From contig NZ_CP034072.1 of NCBI RefSeq assembly GCF_003855255.1, positions 5,756,396 to 5,820,395 of the forward strand: DNA of 64,000 bases, written 5' to 3'. Each line of letters begins with the position of its first letter. The first letter of the stretch is position 1. A program made the position numbers and the translations under genes. The stretch comes from Mycolicibacterium nivoides (lineage in GTDB: Bacteria > Actinomycetota > Actinomycetes > Mycobacteriales > Mycobacteriaceae). Shown here piece after piece: positions 52,362 through 64,000 of the stretch. The notes under the pieces were generated by a model. The model did no database searches. It was not told the origin of the DNA and saw nothing but the letters and a program-made list of their open reading frames with translations.

Positions 52362-52624
52362 AGGCCTACACCCTGATCGGCGCCGACGGTCGCCCACATC
52401 GCAGCGGCACACCGGGAACCCTTGGGGGACACCACCGCAGCAAGATCTACGGCCGCCTCGACTGCCCGTCGGCCCAACGAGCCATCGCCGCCGGCGGCTA
52501 TGTCGGCCACCGGGTGTTCTTCGCCGATGCGCAGACCGCCGTATCCGCGGGCTACCGACCGTGCGCGGTCTGCCTGCCCGCCGCCTACCGGGAGTGGAAG
52601 ACCAGCCAGGGCGACGAGGCCTAA
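52358..52624 (+). CDS. Ada-type metal-binding domain protein
   Basis: The 88-residue product matches the N-terminal zinc domain of Ada (PF02805): GGHHRSKIYGRLDCPSAQRA, GGYVGHRVFFADAQTAVSAG, YRPCAVCLPAAYREW. Ada holds zinc with four cysteines, one of which is the methyl-phosphotriester acceptor. Here only three cysteines are in place (LDC, RPC, AVC); Gly stands where the first would be (IYGRL). So metal binding may persist while phosphotriester repair is doubtful. It ends the sigma-ogt-oxygenase cassette and its last four bases overlap the convergent mmpL gene. Confidence 0.82.
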   Translation: MKAYTLIGADGRPHRSGTPGTLGGHHRSKIYGRLDCPSAQRAIAAGGYVGHRVFFADAQTAVSAGYRPCAVCLPAAYREWKTSQGDEA

Positions 52625-55530
52625 CTCGTGGTCACCGGAAGGGCCGCGGTGTCGTCATCGTCCTCTCGGGGTACACGTGGCGGTGCAGGTTTGCGGAAGT
52701 GGTTGTCCCCGCGGGGATACACCACCTGCGGCCACCAGAACCACCGGCCCAGCAGCGTGGCGATCGACGGCATCAGCAGCGACCGCACGATCAATGTGTC
52801 CAGCAGCAGACCGATCGCGATCGTCGACCCCATCTGGGCCAGCACCACGAGGTCACTGCCCAGCATTGCCGCCATGGTCGCCGCGAACACCATGCCCGCC
52901 GAGGTCACCACGCCGCCGGTGCCACCCATCGAGCGGATGATGCCGGTCTTGAGGCCCGCGTGGATCTCTTCCTTGAACCGGGAGACCAGGAGCAGGTTGT
53001 AGTCCGACCCGACCGCCAACAGGATGATGACCGACATCAACATGACCAGCCAGTGCACGTGGATACCGAACAGGTCCTGCCACAACAACACCGAGATGCC
53101 GAAGGACGCCGCGATGGAACTCGCCGCGGTGCCGACGATCACGGCGGCAGCCACCATGCTGCGGGTGATGATCAGCATGATGATGAAGATCAGCGTCAAC
53201 GCCGACACCACCGCGATCATCAGGTCGTACCGAGCGCCGTCACTCATGTCCTTGTAGGTCGCCGCGACGCCACCCAGGTAGATCTTGGCGTCGGACAACG
53301 AGGACATCTTCAGGCCCTCCTGCGCGGCGGTGCGCTCGGCGTTGACCCGCGCGATGCCTTCCGGTGTGGCCGGGTCAGTCTGGTGGGTGATGAACATGCG
53401 CGCCGACTTGCCGTCGGGAGAGAGGAACATCTTCAGACCACGTTCGAAGTCCGGGTTGGTGAATGCCTCCGGCGGCAGGTAGAAGAGATCGTCGTTCTTG
53501 GCGTCGTCGAAACTCTGCCCCATGGCCAGCGCAGTGTCATTCATCGCCTGCATCTGGTCGATGAGTGCCTTCTGCGAGTTGTACGACGCCAGCGACAGGT
53601 CCCGGCTGGTCTTCATCGACGCGATCGTCTGCGGAAGCAGAGCGGTCAATTTTGGTGCGAGATCCGCTAATTGGTCCGTATTGACCTGCACCGACGCTGT
53701 CTTGTCGGTCAGTTCGTCAATGCCGTCGAGGGCATCGAAGACTGACTTCAGCGCCGCGCACATCGGTATGTCGAAGCAGTGCGGTTCCCAGTAGAAGTAA
53801 TTGCGCATCGGCCGGAACTGGTCATCGAAGTTCGCGATGTTGTCCCGCATCTTCTTGGTGACCTCGAGTAGCTCCTGCGACTTGGCCGCAGAGTCCTGCG
53901 TGAGCTTGGTCTGCCGGAGGGAGAGTTGGTACTGCTCTTCCAAGATGGAGATCGAGACATTGGTCGCGTCAACCATTTTCAGCTGGTTGGCCAACTGCTC
54001 CCGCTGGAACGGCAGGTTCAGATTGCTGGTCTGCCCTTGGATGGCGGTCTGAAACGGAATCGAGCTGTGCTGGATCGGGATACCCAACGGACGGGTGATG
54101 CTCTGCACCATCGCGATGCCCTCGGTGCGCAGCACGTTCTTCGCGACACGGTCCAGTACCAGCATGTCGGCCGGATTGCGCATGTCATGGGTGGATTCGA
54201 CCATCAGGATGTCCGGGTTCATCCGGGCCTGGGTGAAATGCCGATCCGCCGAGGCGAATCCGATGTTCACCGGAGCCTCGGTGGGCAGGTACCAACGGTC
54301 GTTGTAGGCGGGTTTGTAGCCGGGGACGGCCACCACTCCGATCAGCACCACGAATGCGCTGGCCACCAGTACCGGTGCGGGCCAACGGACCACCGTGGTG
54401 CCGACCTTGTACCAGAACCGGCCCTTGGCCACCTTTTTCGGCTCGTACAGGCCAACTTTGCTCCCCAGGTACAGGACCGCGGGGCCCATCGTGACCGCGG
54501 ACGCCACGACGACGATCATGCCGATCGCGACGGGGGCACCCATGGTGCTGAAGTAGGGAAGCCGGGCGAAGCTGAGGCAGTACGTAGCCCCGGCGATGGT
54601 CAGGCCCGACCCGATGATGACCGGGGCGACAGACTTGAACGTGGCGTAGTAGGCGTCTTCTCGGTCCAGCCCCTGACTCCGGTCCTCGCGGTAACGGCCG
54701 AAGATGAAGATGCCGTAGTCGGTCGCGGCCGCGATGGCCAGCATCGTGAGGATGTTGCCGGCGAAGGTCGTCAACCCGAACACGTCATGGCTGGCCAGAA
54801 CCGACACCAAGCCGCGCGACGACAACAGCCCCACACCGGTCAATAGCAACTGCACCAACGTGGTTCGGATCGACCGGTAGACGATCAGCAGCATCACCGC
54901 GATGGCGATCAGCGTGTAGAGGGTGATCGTGGCCAAACTCGCGTTGCCGATGACGTGCAGATCGTCGGTCAGCGCCGCCGGACCCGCGACGTAGGCCTGC
55001 ACGCCCGGCGGGGCCGGGGTTTCCTTGATGACCTCGCGGACCTTGTCCACGCCTTCGTTGGCGAGCGTCTGTCCCTGTTCGCCGGCGAGGTTCAGCATCA
55101 CGTAGGACGCTTTGCCATCGGCGCTCTGCGCCCCGGCCGCGGTGAGCGTGTCACCCCAGAAGTCCTGAATGTGCTGGATGTGCTCGGGATCCTCGCGCAG
55201 TTTGCGGATGATCTCGTTGTAGTACTCGTGGGCATCCGGGCCGAGCGCCCGGTCCCCCTCCACCACGATCATCACCGTGCTGTTGGAGTTGAACTCACCG
55301 AAATTGGCGCCCATTCGCTTCATCGCGATCATCGACGGCGCGTCCTCGGGCGCCATCGGCGCCGAGTGGAGCTCGCCGACCACCTCAAGCTGCGGCGCGA
55401 TGACGTTCACGACGACGGCGAAGGCGATCCAGAACAGCACCACCGGAATCGACAGGATTCGCAGCATGTGCGCGAAGTAGGGGCGGTGACCCCGATCATT
55501 CTTGGCGTGGGCGGCTGTGGAAGACGTCAT
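52621..55530 (-). CDS. mmpL: MmpL-family RND transporter
   Basis: The 969-residue protein is a mycobacterial MmpL of the MmpL4/MmpL5 size and type, moving lipids or siderophores across the inner membrane. It has 11-12 membrane helices, two large periplasmic loops, and the proton-relay Asp-Tyr pairs in AIAAATDYGIFIFGRYREDR and LLAVGSDYNLLLVSRFKEEI. The coiled-coil stretch at about 480-560 (LPFQREQLANQLKMVDATNV, ISILEEQYQLSLRQTKLTQD) forms the long periplasmic hairpin of the siderophore-export class. It follows mmpS with an ATGA overlap and meets the Ada-type gene tail to tail. Confidence 0.93.
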   Translation of the reverse strand: MTSSTAAHAKNDRGHRPYFAHMLRILSIPVVLFWIAFAVVVNVIAPQLEVVGELHSAPMAPEDAPSMIAMKRMGANFGEFNSNSTVMIVVEGDRALGPDAHEYYNEIIRKLREDPEHIQHIQDFWGDTLTAAGAQSADGKASYVMLNLAGEQGQTLANEGVDKVREVIKETPAPPGVQAYVAGPAALTDDLHVIGNASLATITLYTLIAIAVMLLIVYRSIRTTLVQLLLTGVGLLSSRGLVSVLASHDVFGLTTFAGNILTMLAIAAATDYGIFIFGRYREDRSQGLDREDAYYATFKSVAPVIIGSGLTIAGATYCLSFARLPYFSTMGAPVAIGMIVVVASAVTMGPAVLYLGSKVGLYEPKKVAKGRFWYKVGTTVVRWPAPVLVASAFVVLIGVVAVPGYKPAYNDRWYLPTEAPVNIGFASADRHFTQARMNPDILMVESTHDMRNPADMLVLDRVAKNVLRTEGIAMVQSITRPLGIPIQHSSIPFQTAIQGQTSNLNLPFQREQLANQLKMVDATNVSISILEEQYQLSLRQTKLTQDSAAKSQELLEVTKKMRDNIANFDDQFRPMRNYFYWEPHCFDIPMCAALKSVFDALDGIDELTDKTASVQVNTDQLADLAPKLTALLPQTIASMKTSRDLSLASYNSQKALIDQMQAMNDTALAMGQSFDDAKNDDLFYLPPEAFTNPDFERGLKMFLSPDGKSARMFITHQTDPATPEGIARVNAERTAAQEGLKMSSLSDAKIYLGGVAATYKDMSDGARYDLMIAVVSALTLIFIIMLIITRSMVAAAVIVGTAASSIAASFGISVLLWQDLFGIHVHWLVMLMSVIILLAVGSDYNLLLVSRFKEEIHAGLKTGIIRSMGGTGGVVTSAGMVFAATMAAMLGSDLVVLAQMGSTIAIGLLLDTLIVRSLLMPSIATLLGRWFWWPQVVYPRGDNHFRKPAPPRVPREDDDDTAALPVTTS

Positions 55531-55940
55531 GCGGACTTCACCAGGCAGTAGGTCTGGGGTTTGATCCCATTGGCTGATTGCTCCTCACGGACTGTGCCGT
55601 TCACGGTGACACGGCACCCGATTTCGCTGCCGTCGCCCAATGCCATGAGATTGGCGCTGACGGTCGGCAATGTGGTCGACAAGGTGACCGACCAGGGCAG
55701 CGGCGCCGTGACCTGGTGCACCTTCGCGTCTGGGTCGAAATAGCTGATCTGGGCGGTTGCGCCCGGCGGCCCGTACACGTCGTACACGAGGATCTTCGGA
55801 TTGAACTGGACGATCTCGATGCCGGCGCCCGCATTCGCGTTGAGGTCTTCGGAGCCGAACATCCGATGCAGGCGCGAGACAACCAGACCCGACACCGCAA
55901 GCACGACCACCAGAACCAACGGAATCCAGGCATTCTTCAT
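55527..55940 (-). CDS. mmpS: MmpS accessory membrane protein
   Basis: The 137-residue product has one N-terminal helix (WIPLVLVVVLAVSGLVVSRL), then the MmpS periplasmic domain: ILVYDVYGPPGATAQISYFD, PDAKVHQVTAPLPWSVTLST, and two cysteines (SEIGCRVTVNG, PQTYCLVKSA) placed for the family disulfide. It works with the overlapping MmpL. ATG 55940 (MKNAWIPL) is preferred, with GGGGAG upstream, and matches MmpS4/5 N-termini. Confidence 0.92.
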   Translation of the reverse strand: MKNAWIPLVLVVVLAVSGLVVSRLHRMFGSEDLNANAGAGIEIVQFNPKILVYDVYGPPGATAQISYFDPDAKVHQVTAPLPWSVTLSTTLPTVSANLMALGDGSEIGCRVTVNGTVREEQSANGIKPQTYCLVKSA

Positions 55941-56263
55941 CAAGCGAGCTCCCCGACCAGGACTCACTGACACCTCCCGACGATTACCCGAACCCGCCGA
56001 TGGCGATGACCCGCCCCGGCGACCGGCGAATTAGTTCGAATAACTATGTACAGCGTGGACAAACGTTACACCGGTCCACAACCCGCCGCAGTGGCGGCCT
56101 ATTTCCTGTGAACTCGCTGAAAGAAAGCTTGGGACAGTGGCTTTGGTCATGCAGCTCAACGTTGGTCGACATCCGCGGCCGCCAGGCCATTTGATATCAG
56201 CTACCTAGATCAACTACTATTATTCATAGATATTCTATGTATAAGTCGGGAGGTTGCCTGAGG
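55941..56263. other. 323-base divergent intergenic region, AT-rich on its right side
   Basis: The gap must hold the mmpS and sigma-factor promoters. From about 56150 it becomes distinctly AT-rich, ending with the perfect 15-base inverted repeat CATAGA-TAT-TCTATG (56225-56239) just before the sigma start. No IdeR-type box or MarR-type palindrome was seen on the mmpS side. Confidence 0.5.
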
Positions 56264-56890
56264 TTGAACAACAACACGGAACCACTGCCCGACAGCCAGG
56301 ACGCCACTCGGTTCGTCAACACCGTGCTGCCCTGCATCGAGCAAATCCGGGGGCGCGCGCGGCGGCTGACCACCAACACATATGACGCCGAGGACCTGAT
56401 CCAAGAGACAATGCTCAAGGCCTACAGCGGGTTTCACACCTTTCAGCCGGACTCGAATGCCCGCGCCTGGCTGTTCCGGATCATGTACAACAACTGGGTC
56501 AGCACCTATCGCACGCGTCAGCGGGGCGTGGCCGAGCAGCTCTGCGACGAATTCACCGATTGGCAGTTGTCCGCCGAAGCCCGCCACACCTCGTCGGGCC
56601 TGCGATCTGCCGAAGTGGAAGCCCTCGAGACCATGCGCGACGACGAGATCGCCGACGCGCTCCGTGCCATACCAGCGGTCAACCGCGTGACGGTATACCT
56701 CGCCGACGTGGAGGGCTATCCCTACCGCGAGATCGCCACCCTCATGGGCACTCCCATCGGAACGGTGATGTCGCGACTCGCACGTGGCCGCCGCCGGCTA
56801 CGCGAGCTGCTCGATGACGTCGCGAAGGACCGGGGGATCATCCGTGTCCCAGCAGGCGGTCCAGGTCCGTCGCCGCAATCGACCCGGTAG
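56264..56890 (+). CDS. ECF-type sigma factor (SigH-like group)
   Basis: The product (208 residues) is an ECF sigma factor with region 2 in YDAEDLIQETMLKAYSGFHT, ARAWLFRIMYNNWVSTYRTR and region 4 in IADALRAIPAVNRVTVYLAD, VEGYPYREIATLMGTPIGTV with MSRLARGRRRLRELL. The SigH/SigE-type wording is close, and fast-growing mycobacteria are known for extra SigH-like copies. TTG 56264 follows GGGAGG by ten bases and is preferred over ATG 56237, which sits within a palindrome and lacks a ribosome site. No anti-sigma (RshA-like CHCC protein) follows. Its last 53 bases overlap the 3' end of convergent aspA. Confidence 0.87.
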   Translation: MNNNTEPLPDSQDATRFVNTVLPCIEQIRGRARRLTTNTYDAEDLIQETMLKAYSGFHTFQPDSNARAWLFRIMYNNWVSTYRTRQRGVAEQLCDEFTDWQLSAEARHTSSGLRSAEVEALETMRDDEIADALRAIPAVNRVTVYLADVEGYPYREIATLMGTPIGTVMSRLARGRRRLRELLDDVAKDRGIIRVPAGGPGPSPQSTR

Positions 56891-58217
56891 CCAAGGCCAG
56901 ATCGCGTACCCCACCTCGACCGTCCAACACAGCCGCTGCGACCTGACTGGCTCGCGCGTAACCCAGGACTGGAATCAATGCGGTGACCACGCTGACGCTG
57001 CGCGCCGAGATTTCCTGCAAGTGATCACGATTGACTTCGATCCCATCCACGCAGTGAGTTCGCAACGTGTCGAATGCCCGGCTCATCCAGCCCATCACCT
57101 GCAACAGACCGTGACAGATGATCGGCTCAAAAGCATTGAGCTGGAGTTGCCCTCCCTCAGCTGCCAAGGTGACGGTCAGGTCGTTACCGATCACAGCGAA
57201 AGCGACCTGGTTGACCATCTCCGGGATGACCGGATTCACCTTGCCCGGCATGATGCTCGACCCGGCTTGCCGCGCCGGTAGCCGCAGCTCACCCAAACCC
57301 GCTTGAGGACCCGACGAGAGCAACCGCAGGTCGTTGCAGATCTTGGAGACCTTCACCGCCGTCCGTCTGAGCGTCGCAGACAGATGTAGGAACGAGCCGG
57401 TATCCGACGTGGCTTCGACGAGGTCGGTCGCAGTCACCACCGGCACCCCGGTGATCTCCCGCAAGTGGTCCGCCGCGGCGTGCGGATAGCCGATGACGCT
57501 CGTTATCCCCGTGCCGATAGCTGTTGCTCCCAAATTGATTTCACACAACAGGCGGCGCGCCTCCGCTATCCGCGCGAGCTCTTCCTCCACGGTCGACCGC
57601 CACGCGCCGAATTCCTGCCCCACCGTCATCGGCACGGCATCCTGAAGTTGAGTGCGCCCGATCTTGGGCACATCCGCGAATTCCTCGGCTTTGACACCGA
57701 ACGCATCGGCGAGCGCCCCGACCGCTTCCGCCAGCTCACCGAGTGCGGTGATGAGCGCAAGCTTGACCGCCGTCGGGTACACGTCGTTCGTCGACTGTCC
57801 CCTATTGACGTGATCATTGGGGTGTAGCTTGTCGTAGCTGCCCCGCGGATAGCCGAGCAGTTCGAGTGCCCGATTGGCGATGACCTCGTTTGCGTTCATG
57901 TTCGTCGAAGTACCTGCGCCGCCCTGAACTACGTCGACAACGAACTCCCCGTCCAAGTGACCGTCGATCACCTCCTGGCAGGCGCGGTCGATGACGGTCG
58001 CGCGTTCGCCGTCGAGGACTCCGAGATCACGATTTGCGCGAACTGCCGCCTGTTTGACCGCACCCAGCGCCGCGACAAGCGGCCGATGGCTGCCCACCGC
58101 GACACCACTGATCTGGAAGTTCTGCAGGGCCCGGGCAGTATGCACTCCCCAATAGACTGTTGCCGGAACATCCTGAGTACCAATCAGATCACGCTCGACA
58201 CGCACTTGTGATGTCAT
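56838..58217 (-). CDS. aspA: Aspartate ammonia-lyase (aspartase/fumarase superfamily)
   Basis: The 459-residue protein has all three superfamily regions: GGAGTSTNMNANEVIANRAL, the TxxQD-like GRTQLQDAVPMTVGQEFG, and the signature GSSIMPGKVNPVIPEMVNQV near residue 318 with the catalytic Ser. The NMNANEV and HPNDHVNRGQSTNDVYPTAV segments resemble AspA more than fumarase, but fumarase activity cannot be excluded. It splits L-aspartate into fumarate and ammonia. ATG 58217 overlaps the amidohydrolase stop (ATGA), making it the last gene of the six-gene operon; its end overlaps the sigma gene. Confidence 0.87.
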   Translation of the reverse strand: MTSQVRVERDLIGTQDVPATVYWGVHTARALQNFQISGVAVGSHRPLVAALGAVKQAAVRANRDLGVLDGERATVIDRACQEVIDGHLDGEFVVDVVQGGAGTSTNMNANEVIANRALELLGYPRGSYDKLHPNDHVNRGQSTNDVYPTAVKLALITALGELAEAVGALADAFGVKAEEFADVPKIGRTQLQDAVPMTVGQEFGAWRSTVEEELARIAEARRLLCEINLGATAIGTGITSVIGYPHAAADHLREITGVPVVTATDLVEATSDTGSFLHLSATLRRTAVKVSKICNDLRLLSSGPQAGLGELRLPARQAGSSIMPGKVNPVIPEMVNQVAFAVIGNDLTVTLAAEGGQLQLNAFEPIICHGLLQVMGWMSRAFDTLRTHCVDGIEVNRDHLQEISARSVSVVTALIPVLGYARASQVAAAVLDGRGGVRDLALATGSIAATDLDRLLGHG

Positions 58218-59356
58218 CGCGGTAGACGATCGGCGAAGACGTCGACCGCGGTCCACGCCAAGGCGATGGCGCCATCGTGAATGGCACGTTCGGCCATTTC
58301 CCCGACGCAGTGGTCGGCAAATTGCCGCTGATGGTTGAGCGCGGGCAGTGAGCCGATTCCGATGTAGGGATGAATCGCGGGGACAACCTGAGAGACATTT
58401 CCCATGTCGGTCGATGCGCGGTTCATCCGAGCCGCCTCATCGCCGGCGGCAAAACTGCGCCCCAACGCCTCGGCGCTGCGTCGGTATGCCGTCAAAGCTC
58501 TCTCATCGGTGCGGAATTCGGCGTATGGCTTGCTTTCCGGCCGCACCGACAGATCGCATCCACTGGCCAACGCACCCGCTTCGAAGCACCGCCACACCTT
58601 GGACTCCAGATCAGTGAGCTCTGCCAGGGATTCGGCGCGCACGTACCACCTGCCGCGCGTGCGCTCGGGTATCGCGTTGGGGGCCTCCCCCCCGCTGGTT
58701 ACCACGCCGTGCACCCGAACCGTTGCCGGGAGCTGCTGCCGGAGCAGCCCGAGGGCCACCTGCGCGATCGTGAACGCATCAGCAGCATTTCGACCGTGCT
58801 CAGGGTAGGCCGCGGCATGCGCGGCCTTGCCGGTGAAAGTGATCTCCGAGTGCGAGACAGCGAACGGTCGCGCCTCCGCGACGTCGACCGGGGCCGGGTG
58901 AGCCATCATGGCCAAATCGAGGCCATGGAACGCGCCACGCTCCAACATCTCGATCTTGCCGCCACCGCCCTCCTCGGCCGGCGTGCCAAACACCTCGACG
59001 GTGAAGCCCGCGTCATCTGCCACACTGGCCAGCGCCAGCGCCGCACCGGCCGACATCGCGGCGATCAAATTGTGCCCGCAGGCATGGCCAAGACCGGGGA
59101 GTGCGTCGTATTCGGCGCACAATCCGATCCGCACCCGACCCTGTCCGCTCCGCGCATGAAACGCGGTGTCTAGACCCAGATACGGTGTGGTGACTTCGAA
59201 TCCACCGTCGGCAAGGTATCCGCTCACCCACCGGACCGCTTGATGCTCGTTCCAGGCGGTCTCCGGATTGGCGTGTAGCTTTTCGGACAACGCTACAAGC
59301 GAGGGGAACAACTCTTCGACGGCGCTTTCCACGCGGTCCTTGAGGTCATTCGTCAC
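58214..59356 (-). CDS. M20-family amidohydrolase/peptidase (AbgB-like)
   Basis: The 380-residue zinc amidohydrolase shows IGLCAEYDALPGLGHACGHN (metal ligands), FGTPAEEGGGGKIEMLERGA (bridging acid), MMAHPAPVD and the dimerisation domain SEITFTGKAAHAAAYPEHGR, NAADAFTIAQVALGLLRQ. It resembles p-aminobenzoyl-glutamate and indole-acetyl-amino-acid hydrolases that free an amino acid from an N-acyl conjugate. Followed directly by aspartase, an N-acyl-aspartate conjugate is a reasonable substrate; that is inference. Its start overlaps the DUF1028 gene by 11 bases. Confidence 0.88.
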   Translation of the reverse strand: MTNDLKDRVESAVEELFPSLVALSEKLHANPETAWNEHQAVRWVSGYLADGGFEVTTPYLGLDTAFHARSGQGRVRIGLCAEYDALPGLGHACGHNLIAAMSAGAALALASVADDAGFTVEVFGTPAEEGGGGKIEMLERGAFHGLDLAMMAHPAPVDVAEARPFAVSHSEITFTGKAAHAAAYPEHGRNAADAFTIAQVALGLLRQQLPATVRVHGVVTSGGEAPNAIPERTRGRWYVRAESLAELTDLESKVWRCFEAGALASGCDLSVRPESKPYAEFRTDERALTAYRRSAEALGRSFAAGDEAARMNRASTDMGNVSQVVPAIHPYIGIGSLPALNHQRQFADHCVGEMAERAIHDGAIALAWTAVDVFADRLPR

Positions 59357-60020
59357 CGGGCACTCCGTAGGACGGTGCCAGATCGGGTCTGCGTGCCCGC
59401 AGTGTGTAGTCCTGGGCCTGCGGTTGCCATACCGACCAGATGTCCTCGAGTCGTGTGATCGGGTCGTCGTCCCAATCCACCCTCAGATCGGTCAGCGGCC
59501 ACTCTGCGTCGAATACCACGAGCAGACCGCACGAGTGCACCGGTCCTTCTTCTCCGCCGGCAGCTTCTCCGGCCCGCAATCCGGCCAGCAACCGGTCACC
59601 GAGGTGCTCGTCGGGTGCGGCCTCGAACGCTTCGACCATCGCCTGAGGCACCTTGTCCGAGGACAGCAGGTTGCCTGCGGCGATCACGTCGAGGCCAGTC
59701 GCGACGGTGTGAGTTCCCAATGTGCAAGCACCTGAATGGAACCCCATGTTGCCGGCAGCATCGATAACCGTGAGCTGCCGGTACTCCGGATAGGCAGCGC
59801 TGGCCACTACCTGGTCCATCGCTCCACGCGCGTCCGCACCGGCAGCGAGCCGGTCCAGGAGCTTCGAACCCAATGTCGGGTCGGTGACATTCTGAGTACA
59901 GGCCACCCCCACACCGGAGCGGGCCCACACACAGCGGGCTGCCACCGCGGGGCTCGAAGAGGTTACGACCGCTCCGAACATCCCGGTGCGAGAGCAGCGC
60001 CCGGCCAGCGAGAAAGTCAC
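59346..60020 (-). CDS. DUF1028-family protein
   Basis: The 224-residue product matches DUF1028 (PF06267), predicted to have an Ntn-hydrolase-like fold: TFSLAGRCSRTGMFGAVVTS at the start, VGVACTQNVTDPTLGSKLLD, GNMGFHSGACTLGTHTVATG, GLDVIAAGNLLSS, and the late VVFDAEWPLTDLRVDWDDDP. If so, an N-terminal residue could act after processing, but the family's chemistry is unknown to me. GTG 60020 overlaps the RidA stop (GTGA). Members often appear in amino-compound catabolic operons. Confidence 0.83.
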   Translation of the reverse strand: MTFSLAGRCSRTGMFGAVVTSSSPAVAARCVWARSGVGVACTQNVTDPTLGSKLLDRLAAGADARGAMDQVVASAAYPEYRQLTVIDAAGNMGFHSGACTLGTHTVATGLDVIAAGNLLSSDKVPQAMVEAFEAAPDEHLGDRLLAGLRAGEAAGGEEGPVHSCGLLVVFDAEWPLTDLRVDWDDDPITRLEDIWSVWQPQAQDYTLRARRPDLAPSYGVPGDE

Positions 60021-60463
60021 GGAATCACCGCCGTCACAGTCACTTCGACGACCCATTCCGGTCGAGCGAGGGAATCGATCACCAATCCGGTCGAGGCATA
60101 GAACACGCCCTTGAGGCGTTCACCGAGGACACGGTAGACGTCCTCCCGGTACCGCACGTCAGTGAGATACACGTGGCACGAGACGATGTGTTCCAGCGAT
60201 GCTCCGGCCTCGGACAGCAACATTTCGATGTTGTCCACTGTTTTGTGGGCCTGTCCCGCGGGGTCGCCCACGGCCACGCATTCACGCGTCTCGAGATCCT
60301 GGGCCACCTGCCCACGCAGGTATACCGTGTTGCCTGCGACCACGGCTTGGCACAGATCGTTGGACAGACTCTGTTCTGGATATGTGTCGGCGGTGTTGAA
60401 CGGCCGGATGCGGCGGTGCCCGCCGACCTCGATGGAGTCCGGGGTGGTGGTGGTGTTCGTCAT
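60017..60463 (-). CDS. RidA/YjgF-family protein
   Basis: The 148-residue protein has the RidA fold: IRPFNTADTYPEQSLSNDLC, AGNTVYLRGQVAQDLETREC, AQAHKTVDNIEMLLSEAGAS, ASTGLVIDSLARPEWVVEVT. The segment differs from canonical RidA at the R-x-C/V arginine, where it reads STGLVIDSLARPE, so true imine-deaminase activity is uncertain and a pathway-specific role is likely. ATG 60463 joins the HpaB stop as TGATG, and its end overlaps the DUF1028 gene. Confidence 0.86.
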   Translation of the reverse strand: MTNTTTTPDSIEVGGHRRIRPFNTADTYPEQSLSNDLCQAVVAGNTVYLRGQVAQDLETRECVAVGDPAGQAHKTVDNIEMLLSEAGASLEHIVSCHVYLTDVRYREDVYRVLGERLKGVFYASTGLVIDSLARPEWVVEVTVTAVIP

Positions 60464-61914
60464 CAGTTTCTCCCGTCGATGTTCTTGATCCCGGCGGACT
60501 GGCACATGAGTTCGGTTGCCGGCTCGAAGTCGTAGTTGTTGTAAACCGCCAGCAGGTGCGAGAACGGTGGCGATTGCGCGAACAGCTGAAAGGTCAGCCG
60601 GTGGTTGGCGTAGTCGGAGTTCAGCAGGTCACGGCCGTAGGCGAGTAGTTTTCTCCGCTCCTCGGCGTCCACGTCACCGATGGCGAAGTACTTCGACAGC
60701 CATCCGGCCGCCTCCTTGTTTCCGAAGGTGGCTGCGCTGGGGGTCAGGCTGATCTGGCATCCGGCCAGATCACGCACGAGGTGCACGATCCGCGGCAGAT
60801 TACTGCAGGCGAATACCCGGCCGGAGTACATCGTGGCTTGGTGTGGCATGAGATAGCCGCCGGGGCTCGGCTCGGCGAGTTCGATTGCCGCGGTGAGGAA
60901 TGCATTGATGCCTTCGCGGTATGCGGCTACCTCGGCGATCTTCTCCCGGACGCCCTGATGCATCTTGACGCCCGTTTGTCGCGCACTCGCGTGTGCGAAG
61001 CCCAACAGCAGGTCCGCCCAGCGCAGGTGGCGCTGGATGAACGGGAAGATGCTGTACCGGTGCAGGGTAGCTCTGATGAAGCTGGCGGCCTCCGTGTGTC
61101 GGTAGAAGAACACGTCCTCCCACGGGATCTCCACGTCGTCGAACACGATCATCGTGTCGATCTCGTCCACCCGGTTGGTCAGCGGGTAATCCTCTGCCGA
61201 CCGCATGCCCCGGAAGCCCGATCGGCAGATGTGCTTGATATCCGGATGTCCCATGTCAGCGCGGAACCCGACGGCATACTCGGAGTGCGTCTGGTTGTTC
61301 CAGTCGCCGATCGTTGGTTTGACGAACGCTTGATTCGAGTAAGCTGCGGCAGTCTCGAATTTGGCTCCCCGCACCACGATTCCGCGATCGTTCTCGCTGA
61401 CGACGCGGAGGAGGACATCCGGGTCCTGCTCCTGCGGCCACTTGGACCGGTCACCTTTGGGGTCGGTGTTGGCGGAGACATGGAACGGGTCCGTCAGGGT
61501 GGCAGTGCGGACGTGACGCACGATGTTCTCGGAGAATGCCGGATTGATCTTGTTCAGGACGTCCTGGCCGTCCGCCAGCGACCACATTTCGCCCACTGTT
61601 TCGTCGCCGACCCTGGTGACGACGCCTCCGGCATGGTTGAGGATGGTGTCTACACCGCGACGTTTGGCGTGCCAGTCCTCCTTGGTCAGCGGAGGCTTTG
61701 ATCCGATGGCGCAGATATCGCCGCTCTCGTCGTCGACGTAAGTCATGGTGTTCCGGGTCAGTTCGTCATGACCGAGGTCGTAGATCCGGGCCCGGATGTC
61801 GACGATCGGCTGGAACGCCGGATGCGTCGTGACGTCGTCGACACGCTCTCCGTCGATCCAGACGTTGCGTCCGTCGCGGATCGATTCCCGGTATTCCTCT
61901 CCGGTTCTGATCAT
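60463..61914 (-). CDS. HpaB-type flavin-dependent monooxygenase (4-hydroxyphenylacetate 3-hydroxylase family)
   Basis: The 483-residue protein belongs to the FADH2-dependent aromatic hydroxylase family (HpaB/PvcC): YRESIRDGRNVWIDGERVDD, FHVSANTDPKGDRSKWPQEQ, ENDRGIVVRGAKFETAAAYS, VFDDVEIPWEDVFFYRHTEA, and NLPRIVHLVRDLAGCQISLT. These enzymes add an oxygen atom to a phenol or heteroaromatic ring and need a separate flavin reductase, which is not seen in this window. It starts the enzyme part of the operon, 28 bases after the permease. Confidence 0.9.
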   Translation of the reverse strand: MIRTGEEYRESIRDGRNVWIDGERVDDVTTHPAFQPIVDIRARIYDLGHDELTRNTMTYVDDESGDICAIGSKPPLTKEDWHAKRRGVDTILNHAGGVVTRVGDETVGEMWSLADGQDVLNKINPAFSENIVRHVRTATLTDPFHVSANTDPKGDRSKWPQEQDPDVLLRVVSENDRGIVVRGAKFETAAAYSNQAFVKPTIGDWNNQTHSEYAVGFRADMGHPDIKHICRSGFRGMRSAEDYPLTNRVDEIDTMIVFDDVEIPWEDVFFYRHTEAASFIRATLHRYSIFPFIQRHLRWADLLLGFAHASARQTGVKMHQGVREKIAEVAAYREGINAFLTAAIELAEPSPGGYLMPHQATMYSGRVFACSNLPRIVHLVRDLAGCQISLTPSAATFGNKEAAGWLSKYFAIGDVDAEERRKLLAYGRDLLNSDYANHRLTFQLFAQSPPFSHLLAVYNNYDFEPATELMCQSAGIKNIDGRN

Positions 61915-61941
61915 TGATATTCCTTCTCTGTCGCGCGCCGC

Positions 61942-63396
61942 TCAGGCGCCGGTGGTGGGGTCGGGGGCAGGTTGAGCGCCGCGTGCGGCACGGAGGCGAT
62001 AGGCGAGCAGGATCACGCCGAATGCGACAAGGCTCAGGAGGAACTGAGAGCGGGTCTCTTCAATCAGGGACATCATGGTCAGCACAACAACCATCCACGC
62101 GATGGAGAACCACGACAGGTACGGGAAGCACCACATTTTCAAGCGCAAAGCCTCCGGGTCGGTGGCTTCGAGTCGTCGGCGCAGCCGGATCTCGGCGGAG
62201 ACCAAGATGATGTAGTAGATGAGCTGAATGGCCCCCGATGAGTTGATCAGGAAGATGAAGACCTGTTCGGGGAAGAAGTAGTTGGCCACTACGGCCGCGT
62301 ATCCCATCGAGGTGCCGGCCAGGATCGCCCGCACCGGGACGCCACGTCGGTTGACCTTGACCAGGGCCTTCGGCGCATCACCCTTTTCGGCCAGCGCGAA
62401 CAGCATTCGCGACGTGATGTACAGGCAGGAGTTCAGCGAGCTGAGTACCGCAGTGAGCACGATGGCTTCCATCACCACCGACATACCGGGAATCCCGATG
62501 TGCCCCAACACCACCGCGAATGGGCTCCGAATCGTCTCGCCGGTGAACGCGGTGTCCCAGGGCACCGCGGCAACGATCAGCAAGATGGATAGAACATAGA
62601 AGGCGAACACCCGCGCCATCACCTGCTTGGTCGCCCTGGCCGCGAACTCGACGGGTTTCTTGGACTCGGCCGCGGCGATCGTCGCGATTTCTGCGCCGCC
62701 CATCGAGAACAGCACCGTCACACTGCCCACGAGCGCGGCCACGATGCCGTACGGAAACATGCCGCCGTGCGAGAACAAGTTGGTCAAGCCGGGGCTGTCG
62801 GGTTTGCCTACGAGACCGAGCAAGAACAGGCCGGTAACGCAGATGAAAAAGATGATCGCGATGACTTTGATCGATGCGAACCAGAACTCCGCCTCACCAT
62901 AAGCCTTGACCGACAACAGATTGACGGCTGTCAGGAGCAGGACCAGACCGAGGCATAACAACCAGGCTGGAACTCCCGGAAGATAATTGGCGAGGATTCC
63001 CGCGCCGGCGACTGCCTCGATCGCGGCAACGACCACCCAGAAGTACCAGTAGAGCCAGCCCACGCTGAACCCCGCCCAGTGGCCGAGGCCGTCACGGGCG
63101 AAGTTCGCTACCGATCCCGATGATGGTCGTGCCACTGCCATTTCGCCGATGGCGCGTATGACGAAGATCATCAGTACGCCGGACAACGCGTAGCTGAGTA
63201 CAGCTGCGGGTCCGGTGCGATTGATCACCGCACCGCTGCCGACGAATAGACCCGCCCCGATGATGCCTCCGAGGGCGATCATCACAATGTGACGGTTGTC
63301 CAGGCTGCGCCGCAGCCCGTTCTCGGGGGAGGCACCGGCGTCGGACACTGGAAGCGGCTCCGTGGATGGTGCCGGCGCTCCACCGGACTGCTGCAT
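61942..63396 (-). CDS. Amino-acid permease, APC superfamily
   Basis: The 484-residue product has 12 membrane helices and the amino-acid transporter (AAT) signature: DNRHIVMIALGGIIGAGLFV, GSGAVINRTGPAAVLSYALS, then SMGGAEIATIAAAESKKPVE (helix 6 region) and SSLNSCLYITSRMLFALAEK. It resembles GabP/AnsP-type H+ symporters of the inner membrane. As the first gene of the operon, it probably imports the amino-acid-like substrate. It is divergent from the LysR gene. Confidence 0.92.
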   Translation of the reverse strand: MQQSGGAPAPSTEPLPVSDAGASPENGLRRSLDNRHIVMIALGGIIGAGLFVGSGAVINRTGPAAVLSYALSGVLMIFVIRAIGEMAVARPSSGSVANFARDGLGHWAGFSVGWLYWYFWVVVAAIEAVAGAGILANYLPGVPAWLLCLGLVLLLTAVNLLSVKAYGEAEFWFASIKVIAIIFFICVTGLFLLGLVGKPDSPGLTNLFSHGGMFPYGIVAALVGSVTVLFSMGGAEIATIAAAESKKPVEFAARATKQVMARVFAFYVLSILLIVAAVPWDTAFTGETIRSPFAVVLGHIGIPGMSVVMEAIVLTAVLSSLNSCLYITSRMLFALAEKGDAPKALVKVNRRGVPVRAILAGTSMGYAAVVANYFFPEQVFIFLINSSGAIQLIYYIILVSAEIRLRRRLEATDPEALRLKMWCFPYLSWFSIAWMVVVLTMMSLIEETRSQFLLSLVAFGVILLAYRLRAARGAQPAPDPTTGA

Positions 63397-63495
63397 AGGA
63401 ACTCCTGCCGTCAGGATGATGTGTTCCGTCGACTATGACGCCGCTCACCTACCCTGTACAGTCGAAGTATTTGAAGTTACCGATTGGTTTTATTG

Positions 63496-64000
63496 ATGTC
63501 TGATGCCACACTTCGCCAGCTCGAATACTTCATTGCGGCCGTTGAGGAAGGTTCGGTCACCGCTGCCGCCCAACGCCTGCATCTGTCACAGTCAGCGCTG
63601 TCAATGGCACTGGGCGAGTTGGAAAGAGCCCTCGGAGTGCAGGTACTGGTCCGGCATCGGCGCGGAGTGCGCCCCACCAGAATCGGCGAACAAGTCCTCG
63701 TCGACGCCCGCCGGCTCCTGGTGGATCTGGCCGACCTTCAGACCTCGGCGCGCGAGAGCCAGCACGGACTCACCGGGCGATTGATGGTGGGCTGCTACAG
63801 CACCTTGTCGCCAATGCTGCTCCCGCCGGTACTCAGCGAGTACGTCGTGCGCTTCCCCGGTGTCGACCTCACGTTCACCGAGGGCCCGCACGACGTGCTC
63901 ATCGACAACCTGCGTAACGGCACCCTCGACCTGGCGCTGCTCTACGACTACGGATCAGATCTTTCGGCCCACCGTGACGACCTGGACACCGAAGTCATCG
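63496..64000 (+). CDS. LysR-family transcriptional regulator (N-terminal part, runs off the right edge)
   Basis: The 168 visible codons encode a LysR DNA-binding domain (LRQLEYFIAAVEEGSVTAAA, QRLHLSQSALSMALGELERA, LGVQVLVRHRRGVRPTRIGE) and the start of the substrate domain (GRLMVGCYSTLSPMLLPPVL, SEYVVRFPGVDLTFTEGPHD). It is divergent from the permease-led operon with a 99-base gap and is probably its activator, responding to a pathway compound. The C-terminus is outside the window. Confidence 0.92.
   Translation, partial: MSDATLRQLEYFIAAVEEGSVTAAAQRLHLSQSALSMALGELERALGVQVLVRHRRGVRPTRIGEQVLVDARRLLVDLADLQTSARESQHGLTGRLMVGCYSTLSPMLLPPVLSEYVVRFPGVDLTFTEGPHDVLIDNLRNGTLDLALLYDYGSDLSAHRDDLDTEVI

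Follow-up and report, generated by a model that had tools for sequence, protein, structure and literature searches.

What does the six-gene operon near the end of a 64,000-nucleotide stretch of the Mycolicibacterium nivoides genome degrade? This stretch, referred to here as the window (contig NZ_CP034072.1, positions 5,756,396 to 5,820,395 of the forward strand; the genome comprises one contig of 6.9 Mb), carries on its minus strand genes for a permease, an HpaB-type monooxygenase, a RidA-family protein, a DUF1028 protein, an M20 amidohydrolase and an aspartase, in that order, with a LysR-type gene running divergently. A preliminary description of the locus had read these genes as a single catabolic operon under a LysR regulator of its own, and both the layout and the families support this; all seven genes were found and assigned to named families. 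It had also held that no known pathway uses the set, but the histamine (hin) pathway does, with HinL, HinH, an M20 protein in the HinG role and HinI, as does an operon in a second genome of the genus. We propose, at a probability of roughly 0.87, that the locus is a hin-type operon for the catabolism of imidazole-4-acetate, derived from histamine, to aspartate and fumarate, in which the single-component monooxygenase HinF is replaced by an HpaB-type two-component one. The sequence evidence for this proposal consists of the gene families, the gene order, the exchange of HinF for HpaB relative to the congener, and the recurrence of the genes beside hut and amine-oxidation genes.

In the described pathway, histamine is converted to imidazoleacetate, then to aspartate and fumarate; the operon is hinFLHG, and the LysR-type regulator HinK responds to imidazoleacetate (PMC8231116). 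Table 3 of PMC6467879 names HinF as an FAD-monooxygenase (EC 1.14.13.5), HinL as an enamine deaminase, HinH as an amidase, HinG as an amidase (EC 3.5.1.8), HinI as an aspartate ammonia-lyase and HinA as a permease. The portions of these two papers used here supply end products and enzyme names rather than intermediates. The hin genes were reported absent from Gram-positive bacteria (PMC8231116), and a later report lists putative hin genes in Brevibacterium (PMC6467879).

The HpaB gene (60463..61914, minus strand) stands where the congener has a HinF-like gene. In a 19.5 kb region (L214) of this genome (G361), genes for a LysR regulator, a HinF-like flavoprotein, RidA, DUF1028, M20 and aspartase lie on one strand, with aldehyde dehydrogenase (ALDH) and class III aminotransferase genes nearby; neither HpaB nor a window-type permease was found in the region. 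The last four genes follow the same order in both operons, and their products are 66.7% (RidA, over 132 residues), 51.6% (DUF1028), 65.1% (M20) and 57.8% (aspartase) identical; the operons differ in that the window has its LysR gene divergent and the permease first. The window genome gave no match to a HinF-type FAD-monooxygenase at E<=1e-80 (4 of 40 candidates scored). Because the order matches that of the congener and the window genome has no HinF-like match, HpaB, as judged from gene order, is in the HinF slot.

The flavoprotein is also the usual partner of these genes in the fetched Pseudomonas regions. DUF1028 was present in 106 of 149 Pseudomonas genomes, and a HinF-like flavoprotein (>500 bits) with RidA, DUF1028 and M20 occurred in 13 of 20 fetched regions (18 genomes), as counted with a profile built from 7 of the same loci. 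The other seven comprised one with a HinF-like fragment at the region end (L165), three with RidA, DUF1028 and M20 and no HinF-like gene (L154 and L158, where RidA lies close to the region end, and L160, where it does not), and three with a different DUF1028 and no RidA. HpaB was found in none of the 20. By longest open reading frame (ORF) the flavoprotein has ∼430–465 residues; the two that were scanned both match Pyr_redox_3 and FMO-like. It is assigned as HinF by position, and a 79% identical protein is recorded for P. aeruginosa. Five Pseudomonas regions (L154, L155, L158, L165 and L173) show a variant arrangement in which PhyH and class II aldolase-like genes accompany DUF1028 and M20, perhaps for a modified imidazole.

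To describe the neighborhood of HpaB, 96 loci were compiled from the best 80 of 352 relatives in one scan, 6 of 15 plasmid records, 9 sampled-genome loci and the window; five duplicate fetches (L152, L153, L193, L197 and L199) were excluded, and close kin such as L004 and L005 are included. The titles of the best 80 name Actinobacteria, Thermomicrobiales, Proteobacteria and SAR324. The closest relatives in the species-genome scan were Mycobacterium sp. URHD0025 and two Mycolicibacterium peregrinum strains (HpaB 95%), and at E<=1e-110 HpaB was present in 2 of 149 Pseudomonas genomes (including that of L030) and 5 of 396 Actinomycetota genomes (including the window's). More than 2.5 kb of downstream sequence was available for 87 loci. 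RidA and DUF1028 were both nearby in 65 of these, the window included, indicating that the gene set is more than a chance grouping; the remainder had DUF1028 without RidA within limits (3), RidA only (6), neither (9) or an adjacent HutI (4). An aspartase lay nearby in just 9 of the 96 loci. Five of these nine are mycobacterial (the window and L003–L006) and four are not (L025, L050, L070 and L101); L102 is an additional case by annotation. Within 9 kb of HpaB, among the 96 loci and with the window included, we further counted LysR (60), flavin reductase (42), M20 of the Pseudomonas kind (33) and of the window kind (10), old yellow enzyme-like (16), ALDH (13), class III aminotransferase (13), histone deacetylase (HDAC)-like (12), PhyH (11), HutD (8), copper amine oxidase (7), permease (7), HutH (5), HutF (4) and HinF-like (1) genes, using neighbor profiles built from crude ORF clusters of the relatives, whose members match by construction. 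Two loci had unusual arrangements: a second hin-like cluster (L149) in the genome of L013 has a copper amine oxidase, DUF1028, RidA and an HpaB frame split in two, and a Bacillus badius plasmid (L098) has an FAD-synthetase-family gene between HpaB and RidA, with permease, HDAC-like, cytosine permease, aminotransferase and ALDH genes after the core.

Several of these neighbors point to an imidazole substrate. One locus (L046) contains hutH, hutF and hutI over the NCBI model cut-offs. In three loci (L013, L014 and L016) a HutI over the cut-off sits between HpaB and RidA, and in a fourth (L011) the gene immediately after HpaB is HutI-like and no RidA comes after it. Annotations place HutD proteins close to the core in plasmids of Paracoccus (two) and Aminobacter (one), and the profile finds five more loci. 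The copper amine oxidases, transaminases and ALDHs found close to some homologues could convert histamine to imidazoleacetate. The recurrence of HutI, HutD and aspartase, together with the HinF exchange, led us to abandon readings as a pyrrole-2-carboxylate pathway or a general Rut-like pathway.

These observations also bear on the substrate that the preliminary description had favored, an imported N-acyl-aspartate aromatic conjugate, whose aromatic part would be ring-hydroxylated and whose aspartate would be released by M20. Such a route accounts for M20 and aspartase sharing an operon and for the M20 protein being nearest by sequence, among solved structures, to Xaa-Arg dipeptidase and HmrA. 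It does not account for the HinF-like flavoprotein in the HpaB slot of the congener, the HutI genes adjoining HpaB in four loci or the scarcity of aspartase near HpaB, and we consider it very unlikely. The aspartate conjugate is instead most likely N-formyl-aspartate, produced internally by opening of the imidazole ring.

The HutI genes also offer a hint about DUF1028. DUF1028 was nearby in none of the four loci with an adjacent HutI and in 68 of the 83 others (Fisher 0.0017), and because the HutI-bearing loci have no DUF1028, this protein is hinted to be the imidazolone ring opener. The four HpaB-adjacent HutI proteins are 68–74% identical to one another and 33–39% identical to hut-linked HutI; judged by these identities they are probably the product of one event, and the Fisher value therefore overstates independence. 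A clean replacement of DUF1028 by HutI at the genome level was rejected, as all four genomes also carry DUF1028-family genes. Identity to the window protein is 30–41% for the copies of G548 and G549 and for two of the three in G397; the third in G397 is 59% identical and belongs to a second hin cluster, and a fragment in G547 lies at a contig edge without placement. Within the window genome no HutI scored over the cut-off, the best reaching 32.9 bits.

Does the HpaB-type enzyme act on a phenol, as its family name suggests? If it were a true 4-hydroxyphenylacetate 3-hydroxylase, the operon would degrade tyramine- or tyrosine-derived phenols. The protein has PF11794 and PF03241 domains and aligns over nearly its full length to the HpaB structures PDB 2yyk and 2yyg, and the copper amine oxidase beside the L016 homologue has phenylethylamine oxidase as its closest PDB relative. 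However, it scores below both NCBI HpaB equivalog cut-offs (240.8 versus 480.2 bits and 149.1 versus 885.2 bits). The phenol-binding triad of true HpaB is given as Arg100, Tyr104 and His142 in the consulted parts of PMC10816480 and PMC10537072; the residue names had no match in the text of PMC6506529. The aligned window residues are Arg101, Glu105 and Ser147, each invariant in all 96 sequences compared (95 loci), so that Arg is retained while Tyr is changed to Glu and His to Ser. In addition, aspartase and hut genes would have no place in a phenol pathway. Judged from these scores, residues and neighboring genes, a phenol substrate is extremely improbable, and relative to the true enzymes (2yyk, 2yyg) the window protein is alike in family, length and Arg100 and different in the other two triad residues, its NCBI scores and its operon.

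The remaining genes can be fitted to the imidazoleacetate proposal; in what follows the substrate, each reaction and the assignment of hydrolyses among DUF1028, RidA and M20 are inferred. The textbook imidazoleacetate route proceeds through imidazolone-acetate, N-formimino-aspartate and N-formyl-aspartate. The first gene (61942..63396, minus strand) encodes an amino-acid permease of the APC family, similar to gamma-aminobutyrate permeases (PF00324, 366 bits; TIGR01773, 502.6 bits, under the cut-off of 678.1), which would import histamine or imidazoleacetate in the HinA role. HpaB, supplied with FADH2 by an unlinked flavin reductase (one of six encoded elsewhere in the genome, which also has two copper amine oxidases), would then hydroxylate the imidazole ring to yield imidazolone-acetate, which is HinF's job in Pseudomonas.

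DUF1028 (HinH by position) and RidA (HinL) would together convert imidazolone-acetate to N-formimino-aspartate and on to N-formyl-aspartate. The DUF1028 gene (59346..60020, minus strand; PF06267, 208.2 bits) encodes an Ntn (N-terminal nucleophile)-hydrolase-like amidase. Its corrected GTG start yields Met-Thr-Phe-Ser, and the correction matters because it exposes Thr2 as a potential N-terminal residue once Met is removed. All 90 hin-type members have this Thr2, as do all 8 members with lower scores; among the latter, L069 is a hin-type copy truncated by a contig end. DUF1028 may therefore carry a conserved candidate N-terminal nucleophile, as in Ntn hydrolases, the Ntn label being a source's own name; the one solved homologue found was PDB 2imh (E=1.9e-16). 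We put the assignment of ring opening to DUF1028 at about even odds. Seven other DUF1028 proteins, from outside hin clusters (L159, L163, L171 and L180–L183), score 143–172 bits against the hin-type profile and probably belong to another subfamily.

The RidA protein (60017..60463, minus strand, corrected start; PF01042) scores 31.7 bits against the RutC model (cut-off 169.1). It has Ser aligned to the Arg of its PDB relative 3r0p, a position that is Ser in >60% but not >90% of 97 RidA sequences; the catalytic Arg of canonical RidA imine deaminases is R105 in the E. coli protein. Given this Ser, removal of the formimino or imino nitrogen by RidA is a tentative assignment, somewhat short of even odds. 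The joint reading, in which DUF1028 is a metal-free Ntn-type imidazolone amidohydrolase replacing the zinc enzyme HutI, an Arg-less RidA removes the formimino nitrogen and a triad-less HpaB hydroxylates imidazole, is possible and on balance doubtful; if true, it would give three enzyme families new reactions in one pathway.

The M20 metallo-amidohydrolase (58214..59356, minus strand; PF01546/PF07687; TIGR01891, 187.6 bits, over the cut-off of 153.75) is the proposed N-formyl-aspartate deformylase in the HinG role and would remove formate to release aspartate. Aspartate ammonia-lyase (HinI; 56838..58217, minus strand, corrected start) would convert this to fumarate and ammonia; it scores 661 bits with NF008909, over the cut-off of 510, is under the cut-offs of TIGR00839 (583.4 versus 681.2 bits) and NF011092, and scores lower with fumarase models than with aspartase models. 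The LysR-type protein would sense a pathway intermediate, as HinK senses imidazoleacetate. These families and their context are in keeping with four steps that the preliminary description had envisaged: hydroxylation of a ring, handling of an imine by RidA, cleavage of an amide by M20 and conversion of aspartate to fumarate.

The same chemistry could serve a related substrate, for instance a methylimidazoleacetate or a different imidazole acid, for which some lineages would have gained a PhyH dioxygenase. This possibility fits the PhyH genes that accompany HpaB in 11 of 96 loci, the Rieske oxygenases present in a few, and the lack of a transaminase or ALDH in the window operon. Against it, the operon has no PhyH and the HinF exchange in the congener points to plain imidazoleacetate; we regard a related substrate as quite unlikely.

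A number of observations weigh against the imidazoleacetate proposal itself. Genes for a flavin reductase, a transaminase, an amine oxidase and an ALDH are all absent from the window operon, and by eye one of the two copper amine oxidases elsewhere in the genome has an amino-acid-permease-like frame beside it, with nothing clearly tied to histamine beside either. HinF-like matches occurred in 14 of 396 Actinomycetota genomes, and of five fetched regions around them only that of the congener has hin neighbors; one without them (L215, 69% identical) reaches a contig end 1.2 kb on, and three others lacking them are 40–45% identical. One locus (L102) has both HpaB and a HinF-like flavoprotein, indicating that the two are not strict alternatives. 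Among the 83 HpaB loci that have sufficient sequence and lack an adjacent HutI, 15 are without a nearby DUF1028, and the window RidA lacks the Arg of canonical imine deaminases. Finally, the window enzymes are known from sequence alone, and their likeness to the published Hin proteins is one of family, name and position rather than of alignment to the P. putida U or PAO1 sequences.

The layout suggests that the six genes form one transcription unit. Three starts were moved: those of RidA and DUF1028 were set from the N termini of relatives and the junction sequences, and that of the aspartase solely from an ATG overlapping the M20 stop. After correction, as the preliminary description had noted, four of the five junctions overlap, by 1 base (HpaB/RidA), 4 bases (RidA/DUF1028), 11 bases (DUF1028/M20) and 4 bases (M20/aspartase); the gap it had placed at the remaining junction, permease/HpaB, is present, with a length of 27 rather than 28 bases. 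The LysR gene (HinK role; 63496..64000, plus strand, 5' part) most likely starts at the ATG at 63496 and runs past the window end; the complete gene is in a fetched locus (L002). By its position between the divergent LysR and permease genes, the intergenic region (63397..63495) is a probable promoter/operator region. Two similar modules, read by eye, flank the operon: ECF (extracytoplasmic function) sigma factor, MmpS and MmpL genes at 52621–56890, and a further ECF sigma factor with MmpL just outside the window (L002, 1824–10234). The 3' ends of the aspartase gene and a convergent sigma-factor-like frame (56237–56890, plus strand) overlap by 53 bases (56838–56890).

The same enzymes thus occur in an already described pathway with another assignment, the oxygenase excepted. 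Most likely, as far as sequences can tell, the pathway is known and the HpaB-type oxygenase in the place of HinF is a new variant. In the open-licence literature, subscription journals lying outside this scope, no description of such a variant was found among the matches listed (titles and abstract starts), and no mention of DUF1028 was found; of 69 papers matching at least two terms on imidazoleacetate and HpaB, none of the 15 listed carries an imidazole term. The proposal would provide a substrate for widespread genes annotated as "4-hydroxyphenylacetate 3-hydroxylase," "RidA" and "DUF1028" and a candidate reaction for DUF1028; it likely extends the use of histamine or imidazoleacetate to mycobacteria. 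Within a single genus, two unrelated oxygenases occupy one and the same operon position.

Compared with the hin genes of P. putida U (proteins AWA45220–AWA45233 in GenBank, according to PMC6467879) and the P. aeruginosa hinFLHG operon (PA5393–PA5390), the window operon is alike in RidA (HinL), DUF1028 (HinH, by position) and aspartase (HinI), and alike in role in M20 (HinG), the permease (HinA) and LysR (HinK, a likeness of adjacency). It differs in having an HpaB-type monooxygenase instead of the flavoprotein HinF, an M20 of the TIGR01891, Xaa-Arg-dipeptidase-like kind rather than that of the Pseudomonas loci, and a single six-gene operon that lacks homologues of hinC and hinD. The putative Brevibacterium genes are likewise actinobacterial, with HinF, HinL, HinH and HinI at neighboring locus tags, but their HinF is 60–63% identical to P. 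putida HinF (PMC6467879) and so presumably not HpaB-type. The Hut pathway (HutI, HutF) shares the logic of passing from an imidazolone to formimino- and formyl-amino acids, and its HutI adjoins HpaB in the four relatives, whereas the window route would take the acetate as its substrate and lead to aspartate, in a genome without HutI above the cut-off. The Rut pyrimidine pathway likewise applies a flavin monooxygenase, a RidA-family protein and hydrolases to an N-heterocycle, but its monooxygenase and substrate are unrelated to those proposed here.

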